A stretch of DNA of 64,000 nucleotides from Rikenellaceae bacterium (lineage in GTDB: Bacteria > Bacteroidota > Bacteroidia > Bacteroidales > Rikenellaceae): positions 1-64,000 of the forward strand of contig SUZG01000003.1 of assembly GCA_015060015.1 (NCBI GenBank), read 5' to 3'. The notes below the pieces were generated by a model. The model was not told where the DNA came from, did not search any database, and worked only from the letters and a program-made list of their open reading frames with translations. Positions 1,214-61,735 of the stretch are shown one piece after another; the stretch's first letter is position 1; each line of letters opens with the position of its first letter. A program made the position numbers and the translations under genes.

Positions 1214-1328
1214 CTCGCGAATTATATTTATACCCCCGACCCCTGAAAGGGGAGTTGCGGGGCAGAAAATATATATTTTTCAAAGGTGCCCCGCTTCGGC
1301 TTCGCCGTTCGAATCCAGTCATCCCGAC
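1214..1328 (+). repeat. Hairpin element joined to an orphan tRNA 3' remnant (locus A)
   Basis: A GC-rich nested hairpin (CCCCT...AGGGG inside CCCCG...CGGGG, 1232-1262) is preceded by CTCGCGAAT and a TATATTTATA motif. At 1307-1328 follows the 3' end of a tRNA: the T-loop GTTCGAATC, then the 3' T-stem and acceptor strand. The 5' T-stem strand does not pair with it, so the tRNA is truncated at the T-arm. No intact partner tRNA lies nearby. The hairpin motif recurs at 2469-2520. Confidence 0.7.
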
Positions 1329-1347
1329 AAACCCAATCGGAACAAAA

Positions 1348-1377
1348 AAGATGTCGAAAGACATCTTCTTGTTTTTT
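1348..1377 (+). terminator. Terminator after the tRNA remnant
   Basis: A perfect 8-bp stem, AAGATGTC (1348-1355) and GACATCTT (1360-1367), with a GAAA tetraloop, is followed by a T-rich tract. It sits where the terminator of a complete tRNA gene would be. From here to 1490 I see nothing beyond AT-rich sequence. Confidence 0.75.
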
Positions 1378-1490
1378 ATACCTCGGCTCAAGTTTACTTG
1401 AAAGTCGAAGGTGTGGAAAACAAAGGTAGATTTTTTGTCCCATTTTTGCATATCTTCTTTGTGCGGAGATAATTTGTTCCATAAAATTAT

Positions 1491-1498
1491 TATTTTTG
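1491..1498 (+). promoter_or_regulatory. Possible -7 box for the SDR gene
   Basis: TATTTTTG matches TAnnTTTG and lies 43 bp before the SDR start. No TTG sits at the usual distance upstream, so the -33 element is weak or absent. Confidence 0.35.
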
Positions 1499-1540
1499 AC
1501 GCATGATTAACCCAAGAAAAAATAACTAAAACAAATAGCT

Positions 1541-2302
1541 ATGAAACGATTAAATGGTAATGTTACGCTGATTACGGGAGGTGGCAAAGGTATCGGATTT
1601 GGCTTGGCTGAGGCGTTTGCTGAGGAGGGCTCAAACTTGGTTCTTACAGGTAGAACAGAGTCACGCCTTGTCGAGGCTAAAAAGAAATTGGAGGAGAAAT
1701 ATGGTGTCGAGGTGTTGCCTTTGGTGGCTGATGGTGCCGACGAGGAGGCTATAAAGATGGTCGTATCAAAGACCATTGAGAAGTTCGGCAAGCTAAATAC
1801 GCTGGTGAATAATGCGCAGGTCTCGAAGTCTGGTTTGCCGCTTGTTGAGCATACGAAGGAGGATTTCGACCTCGCCATCTATTCTGGATTGTATGCGGCA
1901 TTCTTCTATATGCGCGAATGTTTCCCCTACTTGAAGGCTTCGCGAGGCTCGGTGATAAATTTTGCATCGGGAGCAGGTTTGTTTGGCAAGTTGGGACAGG
2001 CGTCGTATGCTGCGGCTAAGGAGGGCATTCGAGGTATGTCGCGTGTGGCAGCGGCTGAATGGGGCCCTGATGGTGTAAGGGTGAATGTTATCTGCCCTCT
2101 TGCTATGACCGAGAGTCTGCAACAATGGAAAGAGCATTTCCCGGAGCTATATGAAAAGACAATTCAGGGTATTCCGTTGGGTCACTTCGCCGACCCCAAA
2201 GTTGATATTGGTCGTGTATGTGTATTCCTTGCTTCCGATGAGGCCTCGTATGTTACAGGAGAAACTATCACACTGCAAGGTGGTAGCGGCTTAAGACCAT
2301 AA
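1541..2302 (+). CDS. SDR-family NAD(P)-dependent oxidoreductase
   Basis: A classical short-chain dehydrogenase/reductase of 253 residues with a Rossmann fold. It has the TGGGKGIG cofactor loop at 12-19, NNAQ at 90-93, catalytic Ser143 and the YxxxK pair Tyr156/Lys160. The C-terminal ...GETITLQGG is typical of the family. The Gly-rich loop and Arg38 after beta-2 favour NADP(H), by family knowledge. Substrate unknown; FabG-like 3-oxoacyl reduction or sugar/alcohol oxidation are both possible. It is a single-gene unit with its own terminator, flanked on both sides by tRNA-remnant elements. Confidence 0.9.
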   Translation: MKRLNGNVTLITGGGKGIGFGLAEAFAEEGSNLVLTGRTESRLVEAKKKLEEKYGVEVLPLVADGADEEAIKMVVSKTIEKFGKLNTLVNNAQVSKSGLPLVEHTKEDFDLAIYSGLYAAFFYMRECFPYLKASRGSVINFASGAGLFGKLGQASYAAAKEGIRGMSRVAAAEWGPDGVRVNVICPLAMTESLQQWKEHFPELYEKTIQGIPLGHFADPKVDIGRVCVFLASDEASYVTGETITLQGGSGLRP

Positions 2303-2308
2303 ATAAAT

Positions 2309-2337
2309 CAGGCTCAGTTTTTACTGAGCTTTTTTGT
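2309..2337 (+). terminator. Terminator of the SDR gene
   Basis: The stem CTCAG/CTGAG around a T-rich loop is followed by TTTTTTG, directly after the SDR stop codon. Confidence 0.7.
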
Positions 2338-2385
2338 TTTTAGTTGGAGGGAATATAAAAATAGTTGCGGAGAATCCGCTCGCAA

Positions 2386-2416
2386 AACAAAAAAACGACA
2401 ACCAATTGTTGTCGTT
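2386..2416 (-). terminator. Minus-strand terminator after the tRNA-Gly remnant
   Basis: A 9-bp perfect stem, AACGACAAC (2394-2402) with GTTGTCGTT (2408-2416), has an A run on the plus strand at 2386-2393 that becomes the T run on the minus strand. It follows the duplicated tRNA-Gly 3' end, so the remnant copy has its own terminator. Confidence 0.75.
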
Positions 2417-2427
2417 TAATGTTTTGA

Positions 2428-2530
2428 GAGCGGAAAACGAGACTCGAGCCCACGCTTCGCGTAGGCATTTCTCGCGAACTATATTTACACCCCCGACCCC
2501 TGAGAGGGGAGATTTTGGGGTCGCTTCGTA
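2428..2530 (-). repeat. Hairpin element joined to a duplicated tRNA-Gly 3' end (locus B)
   Basis: At 2430-2451 (minus) the last part of tRNA-Gly is duplicated: half of the T-loop, the 3' T-stem and the whole acceptor strand. The rest of the tRNA is replaced by a short CTTCG-containing stretch and the hairpin element: CTCGCGAAC, TATATTTACA, then CCCCT...AGGGG nested in CCCC...GGGG (2470-2521). The intact tRNA-Gly lies about 160 bp upstream of the remnant in the direction of transcription. Relative to its tRNA remnant the hairpin is reversed compared with locus A. Confidence 0.75.
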
Positions 2531-2552
2531 AGAGCCCGATTATCCTAAAATC

Positions 2553-2576
2553 AAAAAGGCTGGCATATAGCCAACC
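2553..2576 (-). terminator. Terminator of tRNA-Gly
   Basis: The stem GGcTGGC/GCCAaCC (2558-2564, 2570-2576; one mismatch) has an A run on the plus strand just beyond it, so it terminates minus-strand transcription shortly after the tRNA. Confidence 0.7.
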
Positions 2577-2587
2577 TTTTGATTTTG

Positions 2588-2660
2588 AGCGGAAAACGAG
2601 ACTCGAACTCGCGACCCCAACCTTGGCAAGGTTGTGCTCTACCAACTGAGCTATTTCCGC
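2588..2660 (-). tRNA. tRNA-Gly (GCC)
   Basis: A complete 73-nt cloverleaf on the minus strand: acceptor GCGGAAA/TTTCCGC, D-arm GCTCAGTTGGTAGAGC, anticodon stem CAACC/GGTTG with loop TTGCCAA (anticodon GCC), and T-loop GTTCGAGTC. Discriminator U; CCA is not encoded. Confidence 0.95.
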
Positions 2661-2692
2661 AAATATGTCCCACTTGTCGTGGATTGCGAGTG

Positions 2693-2722
2693 CAAAGGTA
2701 AAGAAAAAATCTTATAATCCAA
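2693..2722 (-). promoter_or_regulatory. Promoter of tRNA-Gly
   Basis: On the minus strand, TTG (2720-2722) is 19 bp from TACCTTTG (2693-2700). The bases after the box, CACTCGCAATC, are identical to those after the tRNA-Asp promoter at 61339. Confidence 0.8.
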
Positions 2723-2731
2723 ATTTTTTCT

Positions 2732-2739
2732 TATCTTTG
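2732..2739 (+). promoter_or_regulatory. -7 box for the acyl-CoA reductase operon
   Basis: TATCTTTG matches TAnnTTTG and lies 40 bp before the start codon at 2779. It is divergent from, and close to, the tRNA-Gly promoter. Confidence 0.55.
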
Positions 2740-2778
2740 AACGTGATTTATCGAAATTAATGCCAAAATGGGTGCGAA

Positions 2779-3756
2779 ATGGATAGAATGGTAGATATAT
2801 TTGTCGCTTTGGGTCGCCGTCTGCGTGAGTTTGGGCGGTCGCAGCATACCGACGAGGTGCTGCGTATGGCTATGCAGGCCAACGAGTGGTTTTCGCGTGA
2901 GGATATCCTGATGGCCATAGATGCGATATGCGACGAGATGCTCGATGAACAGAAACTGCGTGCGTGGGCATCGCACTACCCTATGCCGTTGTCGTCACGT
3001 CGTGTGGCTGTAATTATGGCCGGCAACATTCCGCTTGTGGGATTTTTTGACCTGCTGTGCGTGCTTATGTGTGGGCATACAGCCGTGATAAAGCCTGCAG
3101 GCAAGGACTCTGTACTGATACGTTATGTGGTTGAGCAACTGCGAGATATATCCCACGACATTCCTATTGAAGATTACGCTGAACATTCGCCCGTCGATAT
3201 GGTGATTGCCACGGGAGGCGATGCGGCGGCACGTCATTTCCGTTCACGCTATGCCGATATCCCGTCGTTGATACGCGGCAGCCGTCACTCGGTGGCGGTG
3301 CTCGATGGCAGCGAGGGTGAGGAGCAGATGGAGGCACTACGCCGCGATATATACACCTACAACGGTTTAGGGTGCCGTAATGTGTCGTTGATATTTGTGC
3401 CGCGAGATTGGCAGGGAGAGATACCCCACCCCGATACGGTGCTTGAAATGAAACGTGGCAATTATGTGAGTGATAAGGCTCTGCTGACGATGCTCGGCGT
3501 TAAGTTTGAGGATTTGGGCGGTGCGTTGGCGATAGAATCTCTCTCGCTGCCCGACTCGTTGAGCCGCATACACTACTATCGCTACGACTCGCTGTCGGAG
3601 GTTGAAGCGTGGCTTGCGGAGAGGGATGATGCTCTGCAATGTGTCGTGTCGCAGTGTGTGGAGCATCCCCGAAGAGTAGATTTCGGCAGGGCTCAATACC
3701 CTACTCTCTGGGATTATGCTGATGGTATAGATGTTATGAATTTTTTAACCGCTTGA
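2779..3756 (+). CDS. LuxC-like acyl-CoA reductase
   Basis: A 325-residue protein resembling the LuxC/aldehyde dehydrogenase-fold acyl-CoA reductases common in Bacteroidota. The nucleotide-binding part shows AGNIP (81-85), IKPAGKDS (104-111) and ATGGD (144-148); Cys199 in NGLGCRN is the expected acyl-thioester nucleophile. LuxC reduces fatty acyl groups to aldehydes; there are no luciferase genes here, so the physiological substrate is unknown. It is followed after 3 nt by a PatB-type aminotransferase, so the two are surely co-transcribed. The pairing may hint at handling of thioester or thiol metabolites, but that is inference. Confidence 0.8.
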   Translation: MDRMVDIFVALGRRLREFGRSQHTDEVLRMAMQANEWFSREDILMAIDAICDEMLDEQKLRAWASHYPMPLSSRRVAVIMAGNIPLVGFFDLLCVLMCGHTAVIKPAGKDSVLIRYVVEQLRDISHDIPIEDYAEHSPVDMVIATGGDAAARHFRSRYADIPSLIRGSRHSVAVLDGSEGEEQMEALRRDIYTYNGLGCRNVSLIFVPRDWQGEIPHPDTVLEMKRGNYVSDKALLTMLGVKFEDLGGALAIESLSLPDSLSRIHYYRYDSLSEVEAWLAERDDALQCVVSQCVEHPRRVDFGRAQYPTLWDYADGIDVMNFLTA

Positions 3757-3759
3757 TAT

Positions 3760-4941
3760 ATGGCAACGATTTACGATTTTGATAAGGTTATTGACCGCCG
3801 AGGAACCAACTGCCTGAAATATGACTCATTGAAGGAGTTTTATGGTCGTGAGGACCTGATACCGTTATGGGTGGCAGATATGGATTTTGAGACTCCCGAT
3901 TTTATTATCGAGGCGTTGAAAGCCCGCTTGGAGCATCCTGTGCTGGGTTATACGCCTGCCTACGATAGTTATTGGCAGAGCATTGTCGATTGGTTGCAGA
4001 ATCGTCATTCGTGGTCGGTAAAACGCGAGTGGCTGCGATATATTCCGGGTGTAGTCAAAGGTATCGGTATGGCTATCAGCTGCTTTACAAAGCCCGGTGA
4101 TAAGGTGATTATCCAGCCTCCTGTATATCATCCGTTCCGCCTTGTGCCGGAGCATAATGGTCGTGAGGTGGTTTGTAATCCGTTGCGAGTGCTGCCAGAT
4201 GGCGGTTACGAGATGGATTTCGAGCATTTGGAGAGCATCATAGATGATGGTTGTCGGATGCTTATTCTCTCCAATCCGCACAATCCCGCCGGTCTGGTGT
4301 GGGATAAGGCGACGCTGCAACGCCTGGCGGAGGTGGCTGTACGACATAATCTTATAGTTATTTCAGATGAGATTCACTGCGATTTGCCGCTTTATGGAAA
4401 TGTGCATACGCCATTCGCTACGGTGTCGGAGGCGGCTGCGAGTTGCAGCATCACATTTGGAGCTCCGACAAAGACATTCAATGTTGCCGGCGTGGTCAGC
4501 TCCTATGCAGTGGTGGTGAATGACGAGTTGCGAGATAAGTTCTACACATGGCTGGCTGCCAATGAGATGGATATGCCGACTGTGTTCGCTATGGTAGCAA
4601 CCGAGGCGGCTTTCAATCGCGGAGATGAGTGGCGTCGTGAGCTGATTGGATATATCGAGGGTAATATCGACTTTGTAGCCGATTTTATGGCTAAATATAT
4701 ACCTGCAATCAAAGTGTTGAAGCCGCAGGCGTCGTATCTCGTATGGATAGACTGCTCGGCACTCGGCCTTACGCACGATGAACTTATCGACCTTGTGGTA
4801 AACAAGGCTCGTCTGGCGATGAATGATGGCGAGATGTTCGGCGTGGGTGGCGAGGCTCATCTGCGAATGAATGTAGGTATGCCTCGCAAGGTGCTTGGTG
4901 AGGCGTTGGAGAGGTTGCGTGAGGCGGTCGCTACGCTGTAA
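3760..4941 (+). CDS. PatB/MalY-type PLP aminotransferase (cystathionine beta-lyase-like)
   Basis: A 393-residue fold-type I PLP enzyme. Signature segments are WVADMDF (37-43), NPHNPAG (172-178), SDEIH (202-206) and the Schiff-base lysine Lys238 in APTKTFNVAG. This subgroup (MalY, PatB) usually cleaves the C-S bond of cystathionine or other cysteine conjugates, releasing ammonia, pyruvate and a thiol; some members are simple aminotransferases. It starts 3 nt after the acyl-CoA reductase stop. Length and motifs are complete. Confidence 0.88.
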   Translation: MATIYDFDKVIDRRGTNCLKYDSLKEFYGREDLIPLWVADMDFETPDFIIEALKARLEHPVLGYTPAYDSYWQSIVDWLQNRHSWSVKREWLRYIPGVVKGIGMAISCFTKPGDKVIIQPPVYHPFRLVPEHNGREVVCNPLRVLPDGGYEMDFEHLESIIDDGCRMLILSNPHNPAGLVWDKATLQRLAEVAVRHNLIVISDEIHCDLPLYGNVHTPFATVSEAAASCSITFGAPTKTFNVAGVVSSYAVVVNDELRDKFYTWLAANEMDMPTVFAMVATEAAFNRGDEWRRELIGYIEGNIDFVADFMAKYIPAIKVLKPQASYLVWIDCSALGLTHDELIDLVVNKARLAMNDGEMFGVGGEAHLRMNVGMPRKVLGEALERLREAVATL

Positions 4942-4973
4942 TTCAGTGTGAAAATCAAGTAGCCAATACACGA

Positions 4974-5005
4974 AAAGAAAAAGCCCAACCTACACGAGGT
5001 CGGGC
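4974..5005 (-). terminator. Terminator of rubrerythrin
   Basis: The 9-bp stem GCCCGACCT/AGGTTGGGC (one G-U pair, 4983-5005) is followed on the minus strand by a T-rich tract (4974-4982). It may also help end the convergent aminotransferase transcript. Confidence 0.8.
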
Positions 5006-5029
5006 CGAAAAATTCGTTGTAAGGGTGTA

Positions 5030-5605
5030 TTAATAATTCTCTTTCTTTGGCTCGAAGTATGCCTGTGCGTGAGCACAAGCGGGACACTTGATGGGAGCCT
5101 CCTTTGCGAGGATTACATAACCGCAGTTGCGGCACTGCCACCAAATCTCGTTGTCGCGGATGAAAACCTTACCCTCGGTTACTCTCTCCAAGAGTTTCAG
5201 GTAACGACGTTCGTGCTCGGCCTCAACCTTTGCAATCTGACGGAAGGTCTCGGCAATCTCTGCGAAGCCCTCTTCGTCGGCTGCGCGTGCGAAGTCTGCA
5301 TAGAGAACATCCCACTCCTCGTGCTCGCCCATAGCGGCAGCCAGGAGGTTCTCGCTTGTTGTGCCAATCTTGCCGGCAGGATAGGTCGCGGTAATCTCCA
5401 AGTCGCCGCCCTCCAAATACTTGAAGAATCGCTTTGCGTGCTCCTTCTCCTGCTCCGCTGTCTCCATAAATACGCCTGAAATCTGCTCGAAGCCCTCCTT
5501 CTTCGCTACGCTTGCGAAGAATGTGTAACGGTTACGAGCCTGGCTCTCGCCTGCAAATGATTTCAAAAGATTCTGCTCTGTCTTTGTGCCTTTTACGCTT
5601 TTCAT
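5030..5605 (-). CDS. Rubrerythrin
   Basis: A 191-residue rubrerythrin, a cytoplasmic non-haem iron peroxidase that reduces hydrogen peroxide in anaerobes. The N-terminal ferritin-like four-helix domain carries the di-iron ligands (Glu20; ExxH at 53-56; Glu94/97; ExxH around 128-131). The C-terminal rubredoxin-like domain has CxxC pairs at Cys158/161 and Cys174/177. It is a single-gene unit with a strong promoter and terminator, fitting an oxygen-stress defence gene of an anaerobe. Confidence 0.96.
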   Translation of the reverse strand: MKSVKGTKTEQNLLKSFAGESQARNRYTFFASVAKKEGFEQISGVFMETAEQEKEHAKRFFKYLEGGDLEITATYPAGKIGTTSENLLAAAMGEHEEWDVLYADFARAADEEGFAEIAETFRQIAKVEAEHERRYLKLLERVTEGKVFIRDNEIWWQCRNCGYVILAKEAPIKCPACAHAQAYFEPKKENY

Positions 5606-5651
5606 AGTTTTATTCTTTTTTAGGGTTGAAATTTCTGTTTTTTTTCTAATG

Positions 5652-5681
5652 CAAATTTAGTCGAAATAAGGTTGTGTGCAA
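5652..5681 (-). promoter_or_regulatory. Promoter of rubrerythrin
   Basis: Minus strand: TTG (5679-5681), 19 bp, TAAATTTG (5652-5659); start codon about 45 nt downstream. A very good match to the Bacteroidota consensus. Confidence 0.75.
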
Positions 5682-5723
5682 TAGTTTTGTGATTATAAAA
5701 ATTTATAGTGTTATAAAAACGCC

Positions 5724-6803
5724 TTATCGTATAAGCCGATAATCTTGCATAAAGGTGTTGTATGCTGCCCTGCTTGATGGACTCATTCTTAATGTGTCGC
5801 CCACTGCTGGCGGTAATAGCGTGTATGTTGGTCGCCATACCCATACGGGAATCAGTTCCAGCGAATAGTGAAGAGGCTCGTCGGCGATGCGTGTTACATC
5901 TATTACGGCTATCAATCCACCATCGGTGTAGCGTTTGCTCTGGTTAGAGACAAAATTTCCTAACGAGTAGAGAGTAATGCCCTGCTTCGGGTCGCACGTA
6001 GCGGGCTGGATGACGTGCGGATGGCTACCTATAATTATATCTACACCATTGCGTCGCATAAATTTTTCAAGGCGAAGCTGTGTGGAGTTGGGCTTGCGTT
6101 GATACTCCTCGCCCCAGTGTACGACGGCTATGACGCAATCGACATCGGCCTTCGCTATTTCGGCAAAATCTCTAGCCATAGCGATAGTGTCAATGCGATT
6201 GACAATCCTGCCTTTCGGCGTTGGAAGACCATTGGTGCCGTAGGTGTAGTTTACTATGGCAAAAGATATGTTGCAATGGTTTAGGTAGCAAATGTTATTG
6301 CTCTTATAATCAATGCTATCACGAAATACTCCAATGCGTCGCATTCCTAATGAATCTATTATGCTGGTCGTAGAGTTTATGCCGCGTGAAGAGTGGTCGC
6401 AACAGTGGTTGTTTGCCAATGCCACAACATCCACTCCCATATCTTTCATTGCCTCGGCTACCTGACGGGGAGAACGGAAGCAGGGATAGCCTTTGTATGG
6501 GCCTTCGTTGGAGAGTGTTGTTTCGAGATTTACGATGGCAATATCGGCATTGCGAAAATGGTGGGCAACGTGGCGGAATGTGGGCCTGTAATCGTATCCG
6601 TCGGCACATTTTGCAGCTTCAATTTGAGGTGTATGCTGCATCAAATCGCCCGCTGCGGCGATACGTACCCTGCTGTATAGCACTACCGAGTCAGATGTAA
6701 TCTCTTTGGCCGATGCAGCCGCAGTCGCTGCTCTTTGCTGTGCAAAGTATAGCGGAGTAAATGCGGTCAGGAGCATCAGTAGTATTGCACCAAAGGTTTT
6801 CAT
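5724..6803 (-). CDS. CapA-family protein (PGA_cap metallophosphoesterase fold)
   Basis: A 359-residue secreted protein with an N-terminal signal peptide (hydrophobic to about residue 20, then an Ala-rich stretch). The core matches the CapA/PgsA family: AAGDLMQH (about 49-56), NLETTLS, ALANNH, VVHWGEEY and IIGSHPHVIQ, with metal-site-type Asp, Asn and His residues. Family members are linked to poly-gamma-glutamate capsule, but many Bacteroidota homologues stand alone with unknown substrate. No capsule genes are nearby. A -7 box (CAAAGATA on the plus strand, 6809-6816) lies only 5 nt before the start codon, so the mRNA could be nearly leaderless. Confidence 0.85.
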   Translation of the reverse strand: MKTFGAILLMLLTAFTPLYFAQQRAATAAASAKEITSDSVVLYSRVRIAAAGDLMQHTPQIEAAKCADGYDYRPTFRHVAHHFRNADIAIVNLETTLSNEGPYKGYPCFRSPRQVAEAMKDMGVDVVALANNHCCDHSSRGINSTTSIIDSLGMRRIGVFRDSIDYKSNNICYLNHCNISFAIVNYTYGTNGLPTPKGRIVNRIDTIAMARDFAEIAKADVDCVIAVVHWGEEYQRKPNSTQLRLEKFMRRNGVDIIIGSHPHVIQPATCDPKQGITLYSLGNFVSNQSKRYTDGGLIAVIDVTRIADEPLHYSLELIPVWVWRPTYTLLPPAVGDTLRMSPSSRAAYNTFMQDYRLIR

Positions 6804-6949
6804 CAGGACAAAGATAGAAAAAATGTGGAATAAAAATCATTGCTGCCACTATTTTTATTTGGATGTGGTGGCGTGGCTAATTTTTATAGTTATAGTGAGG
6901 CTGTCGTGGCGGATAAATATGAATATTTATCAAATAAACCCATTTGGGG

Positions 6950-6980
6950 TTGGTAGTCTGCATTTAGTTTTGTAATTTTG
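6950..6980 (+). promoter_or_regulatory. Promoter of the ettA operon
   Basis: TTG (6950-6952), 20 bp, TAATTTTG (6973-6980). Predicted start about 6986, giving a leader of about 27 nt before the ettA ATG. Confidence 0.75.
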
Positions 6981-7012
6981 CCAAGATTATGAAATAACGT
7001 AAATACAATTAT

Positions 7013-8692
7013 ATGGCAGACGAGAAAATTATCTTTTCAATGGTGGGCGTCTCAAAGACCTTCACCAATCAAAAAAAAGTGCTTAACAACATCTACCTAT
7101 CATTCTTCTATGGTGCTAAAATCGGTATCATCGGTCTGAATGGTTCGGGTAAATCTACCCTGATGAAGATTATCGCCGGTATCGACAAGAATTATCAGGG
7201 CGAGGTTGTGTTTGCTCCGGGTTACTCAGTAGGTTACTTGGAACAGGAACCACAGCTGGACGACACAAAGACCGTAAAGGAGGTTGTCGAGGAGGGCTGT
7301 GCCGAGACTGTTGCCCTGCTGAAAGAGTACGAGGATATAAATGTGAAGTTGTGTGAGCCGATGTCGGATGACGAGATGAATCGTCTTATCGAACGTCAGG
7401 GCGAACTATACGAGAAGATTGACCACGTGAACGGCTGGGAGTTAGATAGCGTGCTGGAACGTGCTATGGACGCTTTGCGTTGCCCCGATGCCGACCAGAG
7501 TGTAAAGGTGTTGTCGGGCGGTGAACGTCGCCGCGTGGCGTTGTGTCGTCTGCTGTTGCAGCAGCCCGATGTATTGCTGCTTGACGAGCCTACCAACCAC
7601 CTCGACGCCGAGTCTATCGACTGGTTGGAGCAGCACTTGCAGCAGTATAAGGGTACGGTTATCGCCGTTACGCACGACCGTTACTTCCTCGATAATGTTG
7701 CCGGCTGGATTTTGGAGCTTGACCGTGGCGAGGGTATCCCCTGGAAGGGCAACTACTCTGGCTGGCTGGATCAGAATACCAAGCGTCTGGCAATGGAGGA
7801 GAAGCAGGAGTCGAAGCGTAGAAAGACCCTGGAGAGAGAGTTGGAATGGGTGCGTATGTCGCCTTCGGGCCGAAGAGCCAAGAGCAAGGCTCGTCTGTCG
7901 GCCTACGACAAGTTGATGAACGAGGATACAAAGCAGAAGGAGGAGAAACTCGAAATCTTTATCCCCAACGGTCCTCGCTTGGGTGATATCGTCATCGAGG
8001 CCAACGATGTGAAGAAGGCCTTTGGCGACCGCATCCTGTATGAGGGTCTGAACTTCAAACTGCCACCCGCAGGTATTGTGGGTGTGATTGGCCCTAACGG
8101 TACGGGTAAGACTACCCTATTCCGTATGATTATGGGTCTGGAGCAGCCTACCGAGGGAACTTTCACCGTGGGTCAGACCGTCAAGTTGGCGTATGTGGAT
8201 CAGCAGCATAAGTCTATCGACCCCGAGAAGACCGTTTATGAGGTTATCTCGCAGAATTCAGACCTTATTACTCTGGGCAACCGTCAGATTCCGTCGCGTG
8301 CCTATGTCGGTCGCTTCAATTTCAGCGGTGCCGACCAGGAGAAGAAGTGCGGTATGTTGTCGGGTGGAGAACGTAACCGCCTGCACCTTGCTCTGGCGTT
8401 GAAGGAGGAGGGAAATGTCCTGCTGCTCGACGAGCCTACCAACGATATCGATGTGAATACGCTGCGTGCGTTGGAGGAGGGTTTGGAGAACTTCGCCGGC
8501 TGTGCTGTGGTTATCTCGCACGACCGCTGGTTCCTCGACCGTATCGCTACGCATATTCTCTCGTTTGAGGGCGACTCGAAGGTTGTATTCTACGAGGGCT
8601 CTTACTCGGAGTATGAGGAGTGGAAGAAGGCACAGGGTCTGGATGTTGGCCCCAAGCGTGTAAAGTATCGCAAACTTACGGAAAACGAATAA
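7013..8692 (+). CDS. ettA: Energy-dependent translational throttle protein EttA (ABC-F)
   Basis: A soluble ABC-F ATPase of 559 residues with two ABC domains and no membrane segment. Walker A motifs are GLNGSGKST (41-49) and GPNGTGKTT (about 359-367); signature motifs are LSGGERRR (about 166) and LSGGERNR (about 449). A charged linker with the EttA-type arm separates them (QESKRRKTLEREL, about 263-275). EttA binds the ribosomal E site and gates the first elongation step according to ATP level. It heads an operon with hisS, an S41 protease and mnmA, which suits a translation role. Confidence 0.93.
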   Translation: MADEKIIFSMVGVSKTFTNQKKVLNNIYLSFFYGAKIGIIGLNGSGKSTLMKIIAGIDKNYQGEVVFAPGYSVGYLEQEPQLDDTKTVKEVVEEGCAETVALLKEYEDINVKLCEPMSDDEMNRLIERQGELYEKIDHVNGWELDSVLERAMDALRCPDADQSVKVLSGGERRRVALCRLLLQQPDVLLLDEPTNHLDAESIDWLEQHLQQYKGTVIAVTHDRYFLDNVAGWILELDRGEGIPWKGNYSGWLDQNTKRLAMEEKQESKRRKTLERELEWVRMSPSGRRAKSKARLSAYDKLMNEDTKQKEEKLEIFIPNGPRLGDIVIEANDVKKAFGDRILYEGLNFKLPPAGIVGVIGPNGTGKTTLFRMIMGLEQPTEGTFTVGQTVKLAYVDQQHKSIDPEKTVYEVISQNSDLITLGNRQIPSRAYVGRFNFSGADQEKKCGMLSGGERNRLHLALALKEEGNVLLLDEPTNDIDVNTLRALEEGLENFAGCAVVISHDRWFLDRIATHILSFEGDSKVVFYEGSYSEYEEWKKAQGLDVGPKRVKYRKLTENE

Positions 8693-8710
8693 AGAGAAAC
8701 AAAACAAAAT

Positions 8711-10054: not shown

Positions 10055-10076
10055 TCTGAAATATATATTTATCGAG

Positions 10077-40633: not shown

Positions 40634-40967
40634 TACAAAAAAAACAAGCGTCACCATCTTGGCAACGCTTGCTTTGAGCTGTTGACGAGGATTGAACTCG
40701 TGGGTGCTGATGCGCCCAAAGGGTTATATTTACATTCCCTCTAAATCCCCCTTTGACAAAGGGGGACTTCGGAGGTCACGAGTTCAAGTGTATGCTAATA
40801 CAAAAAAACAAGCGTCACCGTCTGGCAATACTTGTTCTCTTTGAGCTGTTGACGAGGATTGAACTCGTGGGTGCTGATGCACCCAAAGGGTTATATTTAC
40901 ATTCCCTCTAAATCCCCCTTTGACAAAGGGGGACTTCGGAGGTCACTCGTTCAAGTATATGCTTTAA
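40634..40967 (-). repeat. Two tandem tRNA-Thr 3'-end/hairpin units (locus C)
   Basis: Two units, about 40634-40800 and 40801-40967, nearly identical, with 167- and 163-bp steps to the intact gene. In minus-strand order each has a hairpin CCCCCTTT/AAAGGGGG, an AGGGAATGTAAATATA stretch, a GGGTGC/GCACCC hairpin, then the entire T-arm and 3' acceptor strand of tRNA-Thr, then a copy of the tRNA terminator. The unit also begins with an inverted partial T-arm (TTGAAC...), so each insert is bracketed by TTGAACTCGTG-like inverted repeats. A degenerate further end sits at 40600-40633. Confidence 0.85.
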
Positions 40968-41001: not shown

Positions 41002-41006
41002 CTTTG

Positions 41007-41078
<72 letters not shown>

Positions 41079-51763: not shown

Positions 51764-51794
51764 TCGATTTATTACAACAAATCATAGATTTGTA

Positions 51795-51826: not shown

Positions 51827-51879
51827 TACGATTTAATCGCCATATTCGGCAAGAAGCAAATTTTGAACGAAATTTATAG

Positions 51880-53847
<1,968 letters not shown>

Positions 53848-53861
53848 GAACGATTATCTTT

Positions 53862-53890
53862 GGGCTGTCAGCAATTGGCAGCCCTTTTTT
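53862..53890 (+). terminator. Terminator of gyrB
   Basis: GGGCTG/CAGCCC stem (53862-53884) with an inner CA/TG pair, then six T. Only 24 nt before the udk start. Confidence 0.8.
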
Positions 53891-53913
53891 ATTATACTTT
53901 AACACCCAAGATT

Positions 53914-54534: not shown

Positions 54535-54556
54535 GCTCTCGGCAAGAGCAAAATAT

Positions 54557-54590
54557 AAGGGCGAGAAGACAGATTCTCGCCCTTTGTTTT
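54557..54590. terminator. Terminator of udk
   Basis: An 11-bp perfect stem AAGGGCGAGAA/TTCTCGCCCTT (54557-54584) followed by a T-rich tract. Also suited to stop the convergent TlpA-like transcript. Confidence 0.85.
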
Positions 54591-54606
54591 TCGGATAGGT
54601 TATCCT

Positions 54607-55779: not shown

Positions 55780-55808
55780 ATCTTCTTTGGATTAAAGTAT
55801 TATGAATA

Positions 55809-55837
55809 CAAAGGTAATACCCCCCCCAGAAATGCAA
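55809..55837 (-). promoter_or_regulatory. Promoter of the TlpA-like gene
   Basis: Minus strand: TTG (55835-55837), 18 bp, TACCTTTG (55809-55816). The start codon is 30 nt below. Confidence 0.65.
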
Positions 55838-55854
55838 ACATTTTGGGCAAAAAA

Positions 55855-58530
55855 TTATATTCCCGTAATCTTCTTTATCTCGTTGAGTTTATTGAGTGCT
55901 TCAAGCGGAGTGAGAGAATTGATATCAAGACCCTTGATCTGGTCGCGTATCTGAATCAATACGGGGTCGTCAAGCTGGAACATCGAGAGTTGCAGACTAC
56001 CCTGCCCCGCCACATCGGCCACCTGCTTTGACGAAGGCTGACCGCGACGCTTGCGTTGCGGTGTAGCGACTCCGGCTGCCACATCGTTATTGCCATAGAC
56101 CGTTTCCAGATTACCCAAAATCTCCGTTGCTCGCTTTACGATACTCTGCGGCATACCCGCCATACGGGCAACGTGGATACCGAAGGAGTGTTCTGTGCCG
56201 CCACGGGCCAGCTTGCGAAGGAATACAATCGTCTTATCCACCTCCTTCACCGAGACGTGATAGTTCTTGATGCGGGGGAACAATTGCTCCATCTCATTCA
56301 GCTCGTGGTAGTGCGTCGCAAAGAGAGTCTTGGCGTGCCCCGAAGGATAGTTATGTATATACTCCACCATCGCCCAAGCGATAGATATACCGTCGTAGGT
56401 GCTTGTGCCGCGACCAATCTCGTCCAGAAGGATAAGGCTACGGTTGGAGATGTTGTTCAGAATACTTGCCGACTCCAGCATCTCGACCATAAACGTAGAT
56501 TCGCCCTGCGAGATATTGTCCGAAGCACCCACGCGGGTAAAAATCTTATCCACAATGCCTATATGAGCCGATGATGCCGGCACGAATGAGCCCATCTGTG
56601 CCATAAGGATAATGAGGGCTGTCTGACGCAGCAGAGCCGACTTACCCGACATATTGGGGCCCGTAATCATCATAATCTGCTGGTCGGTGTTGTTCAGCAG
56701 CACATCGTTGGGGATATACTCCTCGCCTACCGCCATAAGATGCTCTATGACGGGATGACGGCCATCGCGGATATCAATCACATCGCCATTATCCAGCACG
56801 GGACGCACATAACGGCACTCGCACGCCATACGGGCAAACGATTGCAGACAGTCGATGCGGGCGATGGCGGCTGCATCACGCAGAATGGGCTTTAAGTGTT
56901 CGGCAATGTATTGCACAAGAGAGGTATAGAGTTCCTGCTCGATAGCGAGTATTCTATCCTGTGCTCCGAGAATCTTCTCCTCATACTCCTTCAACTCCTC
57001 GGTAATATATCGTTCAGCAGCCGTAAGCGTCTGCTTGCGAATCCAACTCTCGGGGACCTTATCCTTGTGAGTATTGCGTACCTCAATATAGTAACCAAAG
57101 ACATTGTTATAACTGATTTTCAGCGACGGGATGCCCGTAGCCTCACTCTCACGCTGCTGAATCATCTGCAACACATCCTTGCCGTGAAGTGCTATGCGAC
57201 GCAGGTCGTCAAGCTCCGAAGATACGCCATCGGCTATGATGCCGCCCTTGGCGATATTGTTATTAGCCGGATCGGGGAAAATCTCGCGTGCAAGGCGGTC
57301 ACGCACCTCGGTCAGAGGATTAATCTCGGCAGCAAGTTCGTGCATACGGTCATCGTCCGACGACTCCAACAGAGCTTTAAGCGTTTCGGTTGCCGTAAGA
57401 GAGTTTTTCAACTGCACCAGCTCACGAGGCAGCACGCGACCCGCAGCAATACGGGCCGAGAGGCGTTCCAGATCGCCCACCAGCGAGATATGTTCACGCA
57501 GAGCAGCACTGAAATCGGCATCCGTAGCGAACTTCTCAACCACATCCTGACGGCGGCGAATAGCCTCGACATCCACCAGCGGCATAGCAATCCAGCGTTT
57601 CAGCAATCTGCCACCCATCGACGTCAATGTGCGGTCAATAACATCGGCAAACGAGCATTTATCCTGCGAGCCATTCGAAGAGAAGAGTTCAAGGTTGCGG
57701 ATTGTAAACTTATCAATCCAGACAAATTCGTTCTTGTCAATTCGCGAGATAGAGTTGATATGCCCCACCTGACGGTGCTCGGTGAATTCCAGATAGTAGA
57801 GAATAGCTCCCGCAGCAGCTATGCCTGAACGCAGTTTCTCAATACCGAAGCCTTTGAGGGTCTTTGTGCCGAACTGCTTGCACAACTTGTCATAGTTGAT
57901 ATCCGCCGAGAATACCCACTCCTCCAATCGATAGGTATAGTAGCGATTGCCGAAAGCCGACTCAAAGCGATCCTCATAGCCTCGCTGATAGAGCACCTCC
58001 TTGGGAGCAAAGCTCGACATGAGCTTGTCGATATATTTGTCATCGCCCTCGGCTGTAAAGAACTCACCTGTAGATACATCCAGAAAAGCCACGCCCGTCT
58101 CCTTGCTTCCGAAATATATGGCTGCGAGGAATGAATTCTCCTTGTTGGGCAGGATATTGTCGCCCAGCACCACCCCCGGAGTGACTAATTCAATCACACC
58201 ACGCTTGACAATCTGATTACCCTTGACAGTTTTGGGATCCTCCAACTGCTCACAAATGGCAACTCTCTCGCCTGCTCTCACCAATTTAGGCAGATATGAG
58301 TCAATGGCGTGATGCGGGAAGCCTGCCAACTCCACATGCGAGGCAGAGCCATTTGCCCGGCGTGTAAGGGTTATGCCCAATATAGAGCTTGTTTTGATGG
58401 CATCGGCACCGAATGTTTCATAAAAGTCACCCATGCGAAATAGCAATATCGCATCAGGGTGCTGTGCCTTGACCTTATTGTATTGCTCCATCAAAGGAGT
58501 CTCTTTCTTTTTCTTCTCTTCTGCCATCAT
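55855..58530 (-). CDS. mutS: DNA mismatch repair protein MutS
   Basis: An 891-residue mismatch sensor. N-terminal [27 protein letters not shown] contains the mismatch-wedge Phe-x-Glu region; the ATPase domain has [13 protein letters not shown], the STFMVEM motif, [13 protein letters not shown] and ATHYHEL; a C-terminal tail follows. Two adjacent ATGs could serve as start. The RecD-like gene lies 42 nt upstream on the same strand, so the pair may be co-transcribed. Confidence 0.97.
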
Positions 58531-58572
58531 TAAAAAAATTAATAGACAAAGATAGCTTTTTGACCGAGAATA

Positions 58573-59985
58573 TCAAAAAAATCTCTCGTCAAAATTCACC
58601 AAATAGACCTTGTCGGTAGCACGGGTTATGGCGGTATATAGCCAACGCAACATATCGCGACTCATAGGCTCATCGCCAAAGAGACATTTATCGATGAACA
58701 CGACCCGCCACTGGCCGCCCTGTGCCTTGTGACAGGTAACCGCATAGGCGAATTTCACCTGCACGGCGTTATAGTGCGGATTCTCACGTATCTCTCTGAA
58801 ACGCTTTATCTTACTCTTTACATCAAGGTAGTCTTTTTCCACCTCGTCAAACAGTTTGCGGCTCTCCTCCTGTGTCAATGATGGCGACTCCGATGAGATG
58901 GTGTCAAGCAGAATCTTGCACTCTATCTCCATATCGTCGTAGTCGGCAAACGACAGCACCGCCTCGGCGAAGTGGAAGCCGTAGAAATCCTCAAAACGAC
59001 GAATCTTTTTCAGTAGTGCAATATCGCCATTGGCAATAAAACTCATCGGACAATCCTTTATTCTTTCGGTGTAGTGATAGTTATTCTTCACCACCATCAG
59101 CATATCTCCACTCTCGATAGCCTCCTCGGCCGAGAGATTATAGCGGCGAATACCCTCATTGAAGCGATTTGCACGCTTGTTGGAACGGGTAACCACGATG
59201 ACCTCTTCGCGACCATATCTGTCGTAGGCGTCCTGCAACCTTTCCAATATATCCACACCGCTGATAGCCTCAAAATCGGGGTGTTGCATATCAAACTGCG
59301 GCACTTCGTAGAGGCCATTCTCCAGCATGCATCTCAACATCGTGGCGTTGAACAATATACCCGACTCGGCACTCTGTCGTACCACATCATCCATCGAGGC
59401 ATAGACCACATCGCCATAACCCTGCATAACCGACTCATCCAACGCCGGGCTGTAATCTGCACCCACGGGTGGCAGCTGGGCATCATCGCCGACCAAAAGC
59501 AGACGGCACTCCTTGCCGCTGCGAACATATTTTACAAGATCTTCCAACAGTGAGCCACTGCCGAAAATCTGGCCATCGCCCGCCCTGTCCGAGAGCATTG
59601 ATGCCTCATCCACGATAAACACCGCACCCTTGTCTTTATTGATATCAAGCGAAAATTTCGATTCGTAATCGGCATTTGTTCTCTCACGATATATATGTTT
59701 GTGAATTGTGCGGGCCGTTTGTCCTGAATAGTGCGACAACACCTTTGCCGCACGACCTGTCGGTGCCAGCAGAACACTCTTGATTCCCAAATCTTTCAAT
59801 ACGGCAACAACAGCAGCCACAAGAGTCGTCTTTCCGGTACCCGCATAGCCGTTTAATACGAATATAGAGGAGTAATTTGGCGAAATTAACCAATCAGATA
59901 ACTTTTCTACAACTTTTTTCTGGCTAAAAGTTGCTTCAAAAGAGAATTTTGCGTAAATTTGGCCTGCGATATGGGTTTTAAGCAT
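58573..59985 (-). CDS. RecD-like superfamily 1 DNA helicase
   Basis: A 470-residue SF1B-type helicase without nuclease domain. Walker A NGYAGTGKTT, motif Ia LLAPTGRAAKVL, motif II FIVDEASML, motif III LVGDDAQLPPVG, and the C-terminal UvrD_C_2 segment VTCHKAQGGQW...YTAITRATDKVYLV are in order. I use the start at 59985 because the promoter (60016-60046) would lie inside the longer frame. Role probably in recombination or repair. Confidence 0.88.
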   Translation of the reverse strand: MLKTHIAGQIYAKFSFEATFSQKKVVEKLSDWLISPNYSSIFVLNGYAGTGKTTLVAAVVAVLKDLGIKSVLLAPTGRAAKVLSHYSGQTARTIHKHIYRERTNADYESKFSLDINKDKGAVFIVDEASMLSDRAGDGQIFGSGSLLEDLVKYVRSGKECRLLLVGDDAQLPPVGADYSPALDESVMQGYGDVVYASMDDVVRQSAESGILFNATMLRCMLENGLYEVPQFDMQHPDFEAISGVDILERLQDAYDRYGREEVIVVTRSNKRANRFNEGIRRYNLSAEEAIESGDMLMVVKNNYHYTERIKDCPMSFIANGDIALLKKIRRFEDFYGFHFAEAVLSFADYDDMEIECKILLDTISSESPSLTQEESRKLFDEVEKDYLDVKSKIKRFREIRENPHYNAVQVKFAYAVTCHKAQGGQWRVVFIDKCLFGDEPMSRDMLRWLYTAITRATDKVYLVNFDERFF

Positions 59986-60003
59986 CCGTTTCGTAATTTT
60001 AGT

Positions 60004-60011
60004 TAAGTTTG
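60004..60011 (+). promoter_or_regulatory. -7 box for the unknown membrane-anchored protein
   Basis: TAAGTTTG lies 36 bp before ATG 60048 and faces the opposing promoter box at 60016. No good -33 TTG. Confidence 0.45.
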
Positions 60012-60015
60012 GATA

Positions 60016-60046
60016 CAAAATTAATAACAAATAACTAATAACACAA
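60016..60046 (-). promoter_or_regulatory. Promoter of the RecD-like gene
   Basis: Minus strand: TTG (60044-60046), 20 bp, TAATTTTG (60016-60023). Start codon 30 nt below. Confidence 0.7.
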
Positions 60047-60047
60047 A

Positions 60048-60686
60048 ATGAAAAAAGCAGTACAAATTATTCTTGGCATTGTAATCATTGCCTTGATATG
60101 GTGGATTGCATCGCTTATTGCACAACCATTGAGTTTTGAGAAGCAGCTCAAAGAGCGTAATGCAGTTGTTATCGAGAAGTTGAAGGACATTCGTACAGCA
60201 GAGCGTGCTTACAAGAGCAAGTACAAGAAGTTTACTGACAACTTCGACACTTTGGCTCACTTCATCCTTCATGACTCTTTGCAGATGGAACGTAAGCTGG
60301 TGGATGAGGATGACTCTGTTGCAATGGCAAGATTGAAGCGTTTGAAGAAGAAGAACGTTGAGACTTACTATATCCACGTTATCGACACTATCTTCAACCC
60401 TCGTAAGTTCACAGCAGAGGATGTACACAACTTGCGTTACATTCCTTTCACAAACAACACCGTTGAGTTTATCCTGGAGGCAGGTGAGGCTGCTACTGGT
60501 TCAACAATGGTATTGCCCGTTGTAGAGTGCCGTGCTCCTTACAAGGCTTACCTCGACACTATTGAGTACCGTCAGAACATCATCAACCTTATCGACGACC
60601 GTGTAAATAACTTCGGTCAGTACGCAGGCTTGAAGTTCGGTTCTATGGAGGGTAGCAACAACGAGGCTGGTAACTGGGGTGAGTAA
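60048..60686 (+). CDS. Conserved-looking membrane-anchored protein of unknown function
   Basis: A 212-residue protein I cannot name. One N-terminal membrane segment (about 5-25) is followed by a lysine-rich amphipathic helix (KQLKERNAVVIEKLKDIRTAERAY, about 32-55, described by its heptad-like pattern), then a globular part with FTAEDVHNLRYIPF and an acidic C-terminus. The membrane helix plus RTAERAYKSKYKKFTDN loosely recall pilin-like or periplasmic scaffold proteins, but no pilin peptidase site is seen. Codon use is like that of highly expressed genes here. Confidence 0.7.
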   Translation: MKKAVQIILGIVIIALIWWIASLIAQPLSFEKQLKERNAVVIEKLKDIRTAERAYKSKYKKFTDNFDTLAHFILHDSLQMERKLVDEDDSVAMARLKRLKKKNVETYYIHVIDTIFNPRKFTAEDVHNLRYIPFTNNTVEFILEAGEAATGSTMVLPVVECRAPYKAYLDTIEYRQNIINLIDDRVNNFGQYAGLKFGSMEGSNNEAGNWGE

Positions 60687-60705
60687 TCACGCTTGACGTA
60701 GATTT

Positions 60706-60742
60706 AGAGGCTGTCCAACAAAAAGTGGCAGCCTCTTTTTTG
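60706..60742 (+). terminator. Terminator of the unknown membrane-anchored gene
   Basis: AGAGGCTG (60706-60713) pairs with CAGCCTCT (60729-60736), then a T run. Confidence 0.82.
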
Positions 60743-60767
60743 TAGCACTATTAATATAAGGTATAGA

Positions 60768-61298
60768 ATGAGAATTATCAGCGGTAGTTGCGGAGGTCGC
60801 ACTATTACCCCTCCCAAGAATCTGCGAGCTCGTCCCACGACAGACTTCGCCAAGGAGAACCTGTTTAATGTACTGGGCAATATGCTCGACTTCGAGGGTT
60901 TGGAGGTGCTGGATCTGTTTGCCGGCACTGGCTCCATAAGCTATGAGTTTGCGTCACGCGGTGCGGCATCGGTCACATCGGTTGAAATCAATGCTGTGCA
61001 TTACAACTTTATCCGCACCACTGCTCAAGGCTTTGGCTTGAAGGCTATACACCCTACGAAGGCGAATGTGTTCCTCTATTTGAAAAATTGTGCAAAGCAG
61101 TTTGACCTTATATTCTCCGATGCTCCCTACGACCTTGAAGGTAGCGAGCAGGTTATAGAGTTGGTATTCGCAAATAACTTGCTACGCGAGGGTGGCATAC
61201 TCATCTTCGAGCACTCCAAATCACAAAATTTCAGCGAGCATCCGCGATTTACTAAAACGAAAAGTTACGGTAGTGTACAATTTTCGTTTTTTGAATAA
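60768..61298 (+). CDS. rsmD: 16S rRNA (guanine(966)-N2)-methyltransferase RsmD
   Basis: A 176-residue SAM-dependent methyltransferase. MRIISGSCGGRTI and RPTTDFAKENLFNVL are the RsmD N-terminal signature; VLDLFAGTGSISYEFASRG is the SAM loop; the catalytic motif reads SDAPYDL rather than the usual DPPY. It modifies 16S rRNA G966. Ends 66 nt before tRNA-Asp. Confidence 0.9.
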   Translation: MRIISGSCGGRTITPPKNLRARPTTDFAKENLFNVLGNMLDFEGLEVLDLFAGTGSISYEFASRGAASVTSVEINAVHYNFIRTTAQGFGLKAIHPTKANVFLYLKNCAKQFDLIFSDAPYDLEGSEQVIELVFANNLLREGGILIFEHSKSQNFSEHPRFTKTKSYGSVQFSFFE

Positions 61299-61316
61299 TA
61301 TTTTTTCTACAATTGA

Positions 61317-61346
61317 TTGCGATTTACATTTTTTGTATTATATTTG
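61317..61346 (+). promoter_or_regulatory. Promoter of tRNA-Asp
   Basis: TTG (61317-61319), 19 bp, TATATTTG (61339-61346). The next bases CACTCGCAATC match those after the tRNA-Gly promoter. Confidence 0.82.
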
Positions 61347-61363
61347 CACTCGCAATCAGCAAT

Positions 61364-61437
61364 GGTGCGTTAGTTCAGCTGGTTAGAATACGTGCCTGTC
61401 ACGCACGGGGTCAGGGGTTCGAGTCCCCTACGCACCG
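61364..61437 (+). tRNA. tRNA-Asp (GUC)
   Basis: A complete 74-nt cloverleaf: acceptor GGTGCGT/ACGCACC, D-arm GTTCAGCTGGTTAGAAT, anticodon stem CGTGC/GCACG with loop CTGTCAC (anticodon GUC), T-loop GTTCGAGTC. Discriminator G; CCA not encoded. Confidence 0.96.
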
Positions 61438-61462
61438 CAAAGTTTGTTTAAGAATAAGCAGA

Positions 61463-61490
61463 AGACAATCTTTCGAGATTGTCTTTTTTT
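61463..61490 (+). terminator. Terminator of tRNA-Asp
   Basis: AGACAATCT ttcg AGATTGTCT with a UUCG tetraloop, followed by seven T. Confidence 0.88.
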
Positions 61491-61499
61491 GTTGGGTTA

Positions 61500-61735
61500 T
61501 AGTCCTTGCGAGTAAACTCGCAGTTCTATCCCCCACCAAAAACATCGACGATGTATCTGCTTATTCTCCGCTTCTGCATAGCGAATCTCGAAATATTGTA
61601 GGGGTTGAGCCGATAAAATTATATATATTGCTCGGCTCAGCCTGCGCTTAAAGGTATCGGCTCTTCGCCTATCGGCGGTCGAGTCCCCCATATTTCATCT
61701 TCGCCGTTCAAAGCCTTACAATTCTTTTTCTCGTA
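61500..61735 (+). repeat. Degenerate hairpin/tRNA-remnant region after tRNA-Asp (locus D)
   Basis: No gene. TGCGAGT aa ACTCGCA (61507-61522) is a perfect small hairpin. A weak inverted copy of the tRNA-Asp 3' flank (TCTGCTTATTCT and GAATCTCGAAATATTGT) follows. At 61614-61690 the order TATATATAT, AAAGGT, CTTCG, then GTCGAGTCCCC resembles locus A, with GTCGAGTCCCC matching the 3' half of the tRNA-Asp T-arm. I read it as an eroded member of the same element family. Confidence 0.5.

Follow-up and report, generated by a model that had tools for sequence, protein, structure and literature searches.

What are the hairpin cassettes that separate transfer RNA (tRNA) genes from displaced copies of tRNA 3' ends in a Rikenellaceae genome, and do they move? 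We examined this in a stretch of 64,000 nucleotides (contig SUZG01000003.1, here C17:1-64000 and hereafter the window) of a 1.88-Mb genome assembled in 31 contigs. A preliminary description, made from the letters of the window, had proposed a non-autonomous mini-element of 100-170 bp that enters tRNA 3' ends by the tyrosine-recombinase route. The mini-element idea was supported overall, by clustering at tRNA genes, by an empty site and by displaced copies that start in the T-loop; the size, the hallmark motif and the tyrosine-recombinase step did not hold as written. The units belong to a real genus-wide family of tRNA-end elements which, on our best reading, is mobile: the short pieces likely behave as tiny passengers of Alistipes-like gut bacteria, with tRNA genes as their docking sites. 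We tentatively favor a reading, to which we give somewhat less than even confidence, in which they are gene-less elements that likely insert site-specifically at a folded hairpin site, where a tyrosine recombinase would act in trans, by prediction either Xer or the integrase of a larger element.

Hairpin classes and their distribution behind tRNA genes

The genome contains 40 tRNA genes above the Rfam cut-off. All were scanned downstream to at most 1.5 kb, and 400-560 nt behind each were read by eye. For 11 of the 40 genes, the final 20 nt recur with no more than 4 mismatches in the next 500 nt downstream; one of these cases is a tandem second tRNA-Pro gene rather than a remnant. The same search with the ends of other tRNAs succeeded in 15 of 1394 pairings; thus, own-end copies exceed chance. 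Reading behind the tRNA genes revealed at least three hairpin classes: class A, a CCCCY-TTTGNCAAA-type hairpin with TATAYTTACA; class B (P5), which reads GGTTG, a stem, TATTTAT...AAGG and a stem; and class C, GGGAAAGGCGTTAAGC...GCCAATCC. Covariance models were built on own-genome copies, nine for class A (model R2), six for class B (model R1) and seven for class C. Within the genome they returned 19 class A matches at E <0.001 (12 behind tRNAs, two behind the transfer-messenger RNA (tmRNA) and five elsewhere, as assigned by reading), seven class B matches of which six were training copies, and nine class C matches (seven training copies), every one behind a tRNA. Class A thus also occurs away from tRNAs, for example at the end of an aldolase-like gene.

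We then consider 61 genomes of the same genus, many of them incomplete; the relatives are Alistipes/Rikenellaceae metagenome-assembled genomes (MAGs). The R1 model gave 126 class B matches in 40 of the 61, and in 110 of the 126 a tRNA gene lay on the same strand within 650 bp upstream. Fifteen isotypes were represented (Leu 18, Ser 17, Lys 13, Asp 12, Cys 10, Pro 9, His 8, Val 5, Glu, Gln, Met and Thr 3 each, Gly, Arg and Ala 2 each). Among the 16 tRNA-less matches, 13 had less than 750 bp of contig upstream, and the other three were a tRNA-Pro remnant in the window, C7:81023 and G021:C46. At the last of these a tyrosine-recombinase gene lies to the left of a displaced tRNA-Met end, which in turn precedes the class B unit (L337), the order expected if a larger element had entered the same site later. 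Around the second (C7:79-82k, L130) there is an array of tRNA-Leu-like 3' ends, with no tRNA in the 6.8 kb upstream that were examined. Class C was found in 41 of the 61 genomes, with 106 matches outside the own genome; among the 29 loci fetched (the best per genome), 25 lay within 700 bp behind a tRNA and the other four had less than 330 nt upstream. The clustering behind tRNA genes that the preliminary description had proposed to look for with a covariance model was observed for both classes.

A tRNA 3'-end copy (at most 6 mismatches in 22) accompanied 85 of the 110 tRNA-linked class B matches, a displaced fragment of the kind that marks tRNA-gene islands beside their restored target gene. 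Of the 25 others, 22 keep a T-loop-like start (TTCGA or similar) behind the hairpin. A pattern scan of the 257 billion bases of genome_contigs, which overlaps the 61 genomes, gave 84 class B matches in 78 stretches, 69 of them with a tRNA within 650 bp. The 15 without one comprised 13 that lay less than 480 nt from the start of their stretch, one apparent chance match, and G021:C46 again. The carriers were Alistipes, Rikenellaceae and Tidjanibacter MAGs, mostly from ruminant gut, and the lone match in Clostridia looks like chance. The pattern had no match in viral_contigs, and carriage by phages was rejected on that ground. In a family sample of 120 genomes, 17 matched class B, 13 of which were of the same genus.

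The class B stem is conserved as a structure. In 115 matches from 100 loci (111 distinct sequences), 99.9% of 884 cells were paired, in an alignment fitted to the covariance model, which favours the stem. Double changes numbered 157, compared with 43.9 in shuffles (none of 500 reached 157), and pairing fell to 30-49% when the strands were slid.

A relative with a clean empty site, of the kind the preliminary description had called for, was found at tRNA-Arg. In G038 the order behind this gene is class B unit, tRNA-end copy, class C-like unit, whereas G000 has the class C-like unit immediately behind the tRNA. The additional 263 bp in G038 are bounded exactly by the end of the tRNA and the end of its copy; the flank shares 93.7% identity over 207 nt, and a more distant stretch 83% over 326 nt. 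G030 and G031 form a weaker second pair, with the same order at a tRNA-Val-like gene and 80% flank identity, in which the G031 tRNA is an odd variant. This gene (G031:C30, L186) is Val-like with an altered anticodon loop and is called tRNA-Leu by ARAGORN. In both pairs the class B unit adjoins the tRNA.

The sequences of P5 (98 hairpins, one per tRNA gene) are more alike within genomes than within isotypes. Mean identity was 0.749 for the same genome and different isotypes (119 pairs), 0.691 for different genomes and the same isotype (428 pairs) and 0.646 when both differed (4199 pairs); shuffling of genome labels gave 0.649, and none of 2000 shuffles reached 0.749. The 5' domains of the units gave 93 BLAST-matching pairs (E 1e-4), 35 of them between different isotypes, including Cys and Ser units of G031 that are 86% identical over 121 nt. 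The P5 pattern fits recent spread within genomes; a common binding factor or gene conversion would do too.

Anatomy of the units and the four window loci

A class B unit appears to be built in the following order: the tRNA 3' end (Y), a terminator-like hairpin (T1) in a branched domain, an imperfect antisense copy of Y, P5, a small hairpin (P6), the displaced copy (Y') and the next terminator. The 78 units that had a tRNA within 330 nt and a good copy span 212-389 bp (median 258; 62 of them 200-300), longer than the 100-170 bp first suggested. Their longest ATG open reading frame (ORF) is 26.5 aa in the median and 87 aa at most, and reaches 50 aa in 13 of the 78. Consequently, no recombinase or integrase gene fits inside a unit, and no evident gene of the kind that would mark an integron cassette appeared in the 78. 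Of 90 P6 sequences, 75 have a folding energy under -3 kcal/mol once TTCG is appended.

The junctions concentrate at the T-loop. Among 76 copies with at most 4 mismatches in 22, the start of Y' relative to the T-loop base T54 was -12 in 3, -8 in 1, -1 in 14, 0 in 30, +1 in 9, +2 in 7 and +4 in 12, so that 60 begin between T54-1 and T54+2. The T-loop is one of the three crossover subsites of tRNA-targeting integrases that Islander lists (PMC4383910). In 43 of the 76, the identity between Y and Y' ends 0-3 nt beyond the tRNA end, and thus a different sequence follows each copy. Several loci carry tandem units, and in G051:C44 (L129) class B hairpins stand head to tail in a minisatellite-like array. 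The newest unit would enter next to the tRNA and would supply it with a new 3' end.

The features of the four window loci are as follows; those marked by eye were assigned by reading.

1219..1258, minus strand: class A-like hairpin stretch with TATATTTATA, by eye; opposite in orientation to the Pro remnant, and shares positions with the class B stem
1252..1294, plus strand: class B hairpin (P5), R1 match of 51.5 bits, training copy
1295..1307, plus strand: small hairpin P6 (TTCGGCTTCGCCG), by eye; in the P6 series
1308..1328, plus strand: displaced 3' end of tRNA-Pro that begins in the T-loop and runs one base beyond the tRNA; intact partner at C28:113752-113826
2587..2660, minus strand: tRNA-Gly(GCC), intact
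2547..2586, minus strand: terminator-like hairpin T1 directly 3' of tRNA-Gly, by eye; ends approximate
2515..2524, minus strand: partial antisense copy of the Gly variable loop and T-stem (GCGACCCCAA), by eye, unscored
2478..2518, minus strand: class A hairpin, R2 match of 40.1 bits, training copy
2448..2466, minus strand: small hairpin ahead of the Gly copy, by eye
2428..2447, minus strand: displaced tRNA-Gly 3'-end copy, from the downstream scan and the own-end count
41006..41078, minus strand: tRNA-Thr(GGT), intact
40939..40952, minus strand: antisense copy of the tRNA-Thr variable loop and T-stem, unit 1, by eye
40891..40938, minus strand: class A hairpin, Thr unit 1, R2 match of 61.9 bits, training copy
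40869..40884, minus strand: small hairpin, Thr unit 1, by eye
40843..40868, minus strand: displaced tRNA-Thr 3'-end copy, unit 1, by eye and downstream scan
40772..40785, minus strand: antisense copy, Thr unit 2 (GAACTCGTGACCTC), by eye
40724..40771, minus strand: class A hairpin, Thr unit 2, R2 match of 61.9 bits
40676..40701, minus strand: displaced tRNA-Thr 3'-end copy, unit 2, by eye and downstream scan
61364..61438, plus strand: tRNA-Asp(GTC), intact
61602..61663, plus strand: class B hairpin (P5) with stem GAGCCGAT/ATCGGCTC, R1 match of 58.2 bits, training copy
61664..61677, plus strand: small hairpin P6 (TTCGCCTATCGGCG), by eye
61679..61689, plus strand: 11-nt copy of the tRNA-Asp T-loop region, by eye; not scored as a full copy (9 mismatches in 22)

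All three intact tRNAs named in the preliminary description were verified. Its statement that each is followed by a copy of its own 3' end was borne out at Gly (one copy) and Thr (two copies), each after a hairpin cassette, and more weakly at Asp, where about 11 nt are shared. The fourth remnant, said to have no intact partner, does have one: 1308-1328 matches a tRNA-Pro on another contig exactly over 21 nt. Nor could TATATTTA(C/T)A (TATATTTAYA) be retained as a hallmark of the family. The motif has 20 sites in the genome against 21 for a reversed control and belongs to class A, while the hairpin common to the Asp cassette and the one at 1214 is of class B. Sequence similar to the 1219..1258 stretch occurs at L003 and L029; the stretch is absent from the R2 match list.

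The tRNA-Pro that matches the remnant (L333, C28:113752-121502) is followed by ORFs that look, by eye, KAP-NTPase-like, helix-turn-helix and replication-like; at the end of the contig, downstream of the tRNA, an integrase match is cut off. Since the partner precedes such mobile-element-like ORFs and a cut integrase, an island beginning at this tRNA-Pro and split by the assembly may have its far end in the first ~1.3 kb of the window.

Class A units also stand behind genes of other kinds. At the tmRNA (L083, C16:~23.9k; by eye), two class A hairpins are followed by a displaced tmRNA 3' end. The end of the aldolase-like gene (L084, C3:~1465) shows a terminator, an inverted copy, a class A hairpin and a direct copy, in the order seen at tRNAs; gene and displaced copy disagree at three positions, each judged by eye to be synonymous. 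Class A hairpins at L022, L043, L046/L095 and L084 hold within their loops a ~90-bp repeat (..TTGTCTGCTCCTGCTCGGCATAG..), again by eye.

Antisense arm, recombinases and rival explanations

An imperfect antisense copy of the tRNA end precedes P5, at a distance of 7-17 nt in 38 of 40 units inspected. We compared each unit's own isotype with other-isotype controls. The own antisense ranked in the top 5% for 50 of 93 units and in the top 1% for 32; the sense control gave 5 and 0 of 93, respectively. A broader test over the whole 5' domain gave 25% vs 5%. In the 50 best-ranked units, which were chosen by fit, transversions outnumbered transitions among the antisense mismatches by 154 to 31; 14 missing bases and 12 extra bases at one place were also recorded. 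This excess of transversions points to mispairs that are kept rather than to decay. When the 40 nt before P5 were folded as DNA with Y', at least 8 pairs formed in 28 of 71 units on the top strand (13% with Y of other isotypes) and in 40 of 71 on the bottom strand (15%). In class A Thr units the antisense spans the variable loop and T-stem and, by eye, tracks changes of the tRNA in G033 and G015 and not in the G006 array. An apparent preference of the antisense for the intact tRNA over the displaced copy (53 vs 5 of 69 positions) was discarded as biased by the choice of loci on fit. Differences in the acceptor strand of the displaced copy leave pairing with the tRNA 5' strand intact in 24 of 58 cases, which is not decisive.

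The antisense copy, P5, P6 and Y might together make up a single folded site for recombination, in the manner of integron attC. A tyrosine recombinase supplied in trans would then act on it; the predicted candidates are Xer proteins of the host and integrases encoded by larger elements. Tyrosine recombinases were counted as PF00589 matches at E 1e-6 or better. The numbers of class B copies and of recombinases were 7 and 6 in G000, 8 and 2 in G040, 8 and 5 in both G059 and G030, 5 and 8 in G041, 5 and 3 in G044, and 6 and 7 in G015; genomes free of class B had 4 (G019 and G024), 7 (G039) and 12 (G048). Xer-type proteins are the only tyrosine recombinases found in the element-rich G040. In this genome the XerD-like protein scores slightly under, and the XerC-like protein clearly under, the curated equivalog cut-off. 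In G059, G040 and G004 (L192, L214, L239), the tRNA-Leu that bears class B units has upstream of it a xerC-like gene that adjoins an lspA-like one. We set it aside as a linked enzyme: the lspA-like neighbour precedes it, and the arrangement is probably plain gene order.

The tyrosine-recombinase gene beside the class B unit at the displaced tRNA-Met end was counted in favor of the folded-site reading, and a number of observations weigh on the other side. G040 (98% complete) combines eight class B copies with just two tyrosine recombinases, both Xer-type, and G048 combines 12 with no class B, which does not agree with the recombinase route as first described. Either Xer acts, or the G040 elements are relics, or no tyrosine recombinase is involved. 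Integron integrase (TIGR02249) was above cut-off in none of the 61 genomes, and an integron proper was rejected for this reason; matches below cut-off, as to other tyrosine recombinases, occurred in all 61. A simple integrase that crosses over in the T-loop would give the tRNA the element's acceptor strand, and jumps between isotypes are then hard to explain. There is a single strong pair of occupied and empty sites, and precise loss would give the same picture; neither a circular form nor mobility was observed. Several loci are plain tandem repeats. As for the arm, 43 of the 93 units had no antisense match in the top 5%, and where Y and Y' differ the antisense showed no clear preference (14 to 9, with 12 ties; n=35). 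In class C the antisense match was not isotype-specific (11 of 14 Ser units, none of 13 others), and specificity was rejected for that class.

The preliminary description had itself raised slippage duplication followed by hairpin insertion. Along these lines, the units could be by-products of replication, with slippage and template switching duplicating tRNA 3' ends that have strong terminators and also making the antisense copies, dispersed hairpins settling in later, and no dedicated element. The loci at Thr and Lys and several in relatives are indeed tandem repeats with the same or a similar terminator, and, by eye, inverted upstream copies also follow terminators at tRNA-fMet, at one tRNA-Leu and at a CoA-transferase-like gene. 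However, many sites have a new terminator and hairpin, copy identity stops within 3 nt of the tRNA end in more than half of the copies, and the tRNA-Arg insertion is exact and made of sequence absent from the relative. Together with a class B stem that covaries across the genus sample almost only at tRNA ends, and with mismatches unlike those of ordinary decay, this makes a mere by-product unlikely in our judgment. Some of the same facts agree with a structured RNA, in which tRNA read-through would fold the antisense copy, P5, P6 and Y' and control 3' processing or termination, while gene conversion copies the units: the stem covaries, the units lie on the transcribed strand behind tRNAs, and by eye both the antisense and sense copies follow the Thr T-arm changes in G033 and G015. 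Yet few tRNAs per genome have a unit, the isotypes vary by species, and 21 of the 61 genomes have no R1 match. The units sit, by eye, after a terminator-like hairpin, and pairing on the bottom DNA strand is no weaker than on the top. Rfam 15 returned only tRNAs above the gathering score in the window and likewise in seven element loci, where no match to the elements appeared at E 0.1 and one sub-threshold match was antisense to a tRNA; a known RNA family was rejected accordingly. We regard the RNA explanation, too, as improbable.

Collapse by deletion of large integrative elements, leaving attL and attR behind as scars, would account for the integrase genes near the same tRNA ends (L337, and the stretches behind tRNAs on C18 and C24 where PF00589 matched) and for the cut PF00589 match at the end of C28. 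It is less easily reconciled with the same folded units at 15 isotypes and in tandem, with the covarying P5 and with ORFs of at most 87 aa; moreover, the lone integrase element beside a unit shows, by eye, no P5 at its own end. We consider such scars very unlikely. REP/BIME elements, which are moved with RAYT, are short palindromic repeats with an invariant foot, and P5 recalls them in its short invariant foot GGTT and imperfect hairpin. Nevertheless, movement of REP or miniature inverted-repeat elements by a Y1 transposase (RAYT or IS200/IS605) is scarcely credible here and was rejected: Y1_Tnp (PF01797) was found in none of the 61 genomes, incomplete as many are, in a search whose control was positive in 5 of 14 known genomes, and the units differ from REP/BIME in their strict tRNA target.

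Comparison with known systems

tRNA genes are common docking sites of bacterial islands. The islands catalogued by Islander resemble the units in the restored tRNA, the displaced 3' fragment, the T-loop junction and the tandem arrays (PMC4383910). The units differ from them in carrying no integrase, in their length of ~210-390 bp, in their conserved hairpins and in the antisense tRNA end. The 178-bp repeats of E. coli tyrT (rtT RNA) are tandem noncoding repeats each holding the last ~19 nt of the tRNA, in one operon; for these, we know of no family across isotypes, covarying hairpin or empty sites.

Integron cassettes insert at one fixed end, as the units would also do on our reading, and integron sites are crossed over at G|TT. 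Unlike the cassettes, the units have no evident gene and no IntI above cut-off to serve them, dock at the tRNA T-loop, and have an arm matched to the host tRNA and a conserved P5. Their apparent resemblance to attC would lie in imperfect inverted arms, unpaired (extra-helical) bases, a variable hairpin top and tandem units, in the terms of the attC description given in PMC2727003. A putative attC-like arm would correspond here to the antisense found in 50 of 93 units and to its predicted pairing in 40 of 71 on the bottom and 28 of 71 on the top strand. Carried to its end, the analogy would make the family a gene-less, tRNA-anchored counterpart of the integron: tandem 200-400-bp units that dock at the T-loop through a folded single-stranded site, with a deliberately mismatched antisense arm as the address and Xer as the driver. 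We consider this full version doubtful.

Within Bacteroidales, the 188-bp repeat PINSR of Prevotella intermedia is likewise a lineage-specific noncoding intergenic repeat, with 177 and 184 copies in two strains; the section that describes it contains no link to tRNAs, and identity with PINSR was rejected on that basis (PMC4755523). In the open-access literature we found no short recombinase-less elements that sit almost only at tRNAs and leave the tRNA restored while holding an antisense matched to it. If the family is a structured RNA instead, it would still be a genus-wide tRNA-3'-end motif new to Rfam 15 as searched. We know of no tRNA-restoring, antisense-carrying element that lacks a recombinase, and if the folded-site reading is true, these would be the smallest site-specific passengers known to us. 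Filamentous phages are another case of recombination at a hairpin site. On the folded-site reading the units would add a further one beside integrons and these phages, together with a natural set of per-tRNA target addresses to compare.

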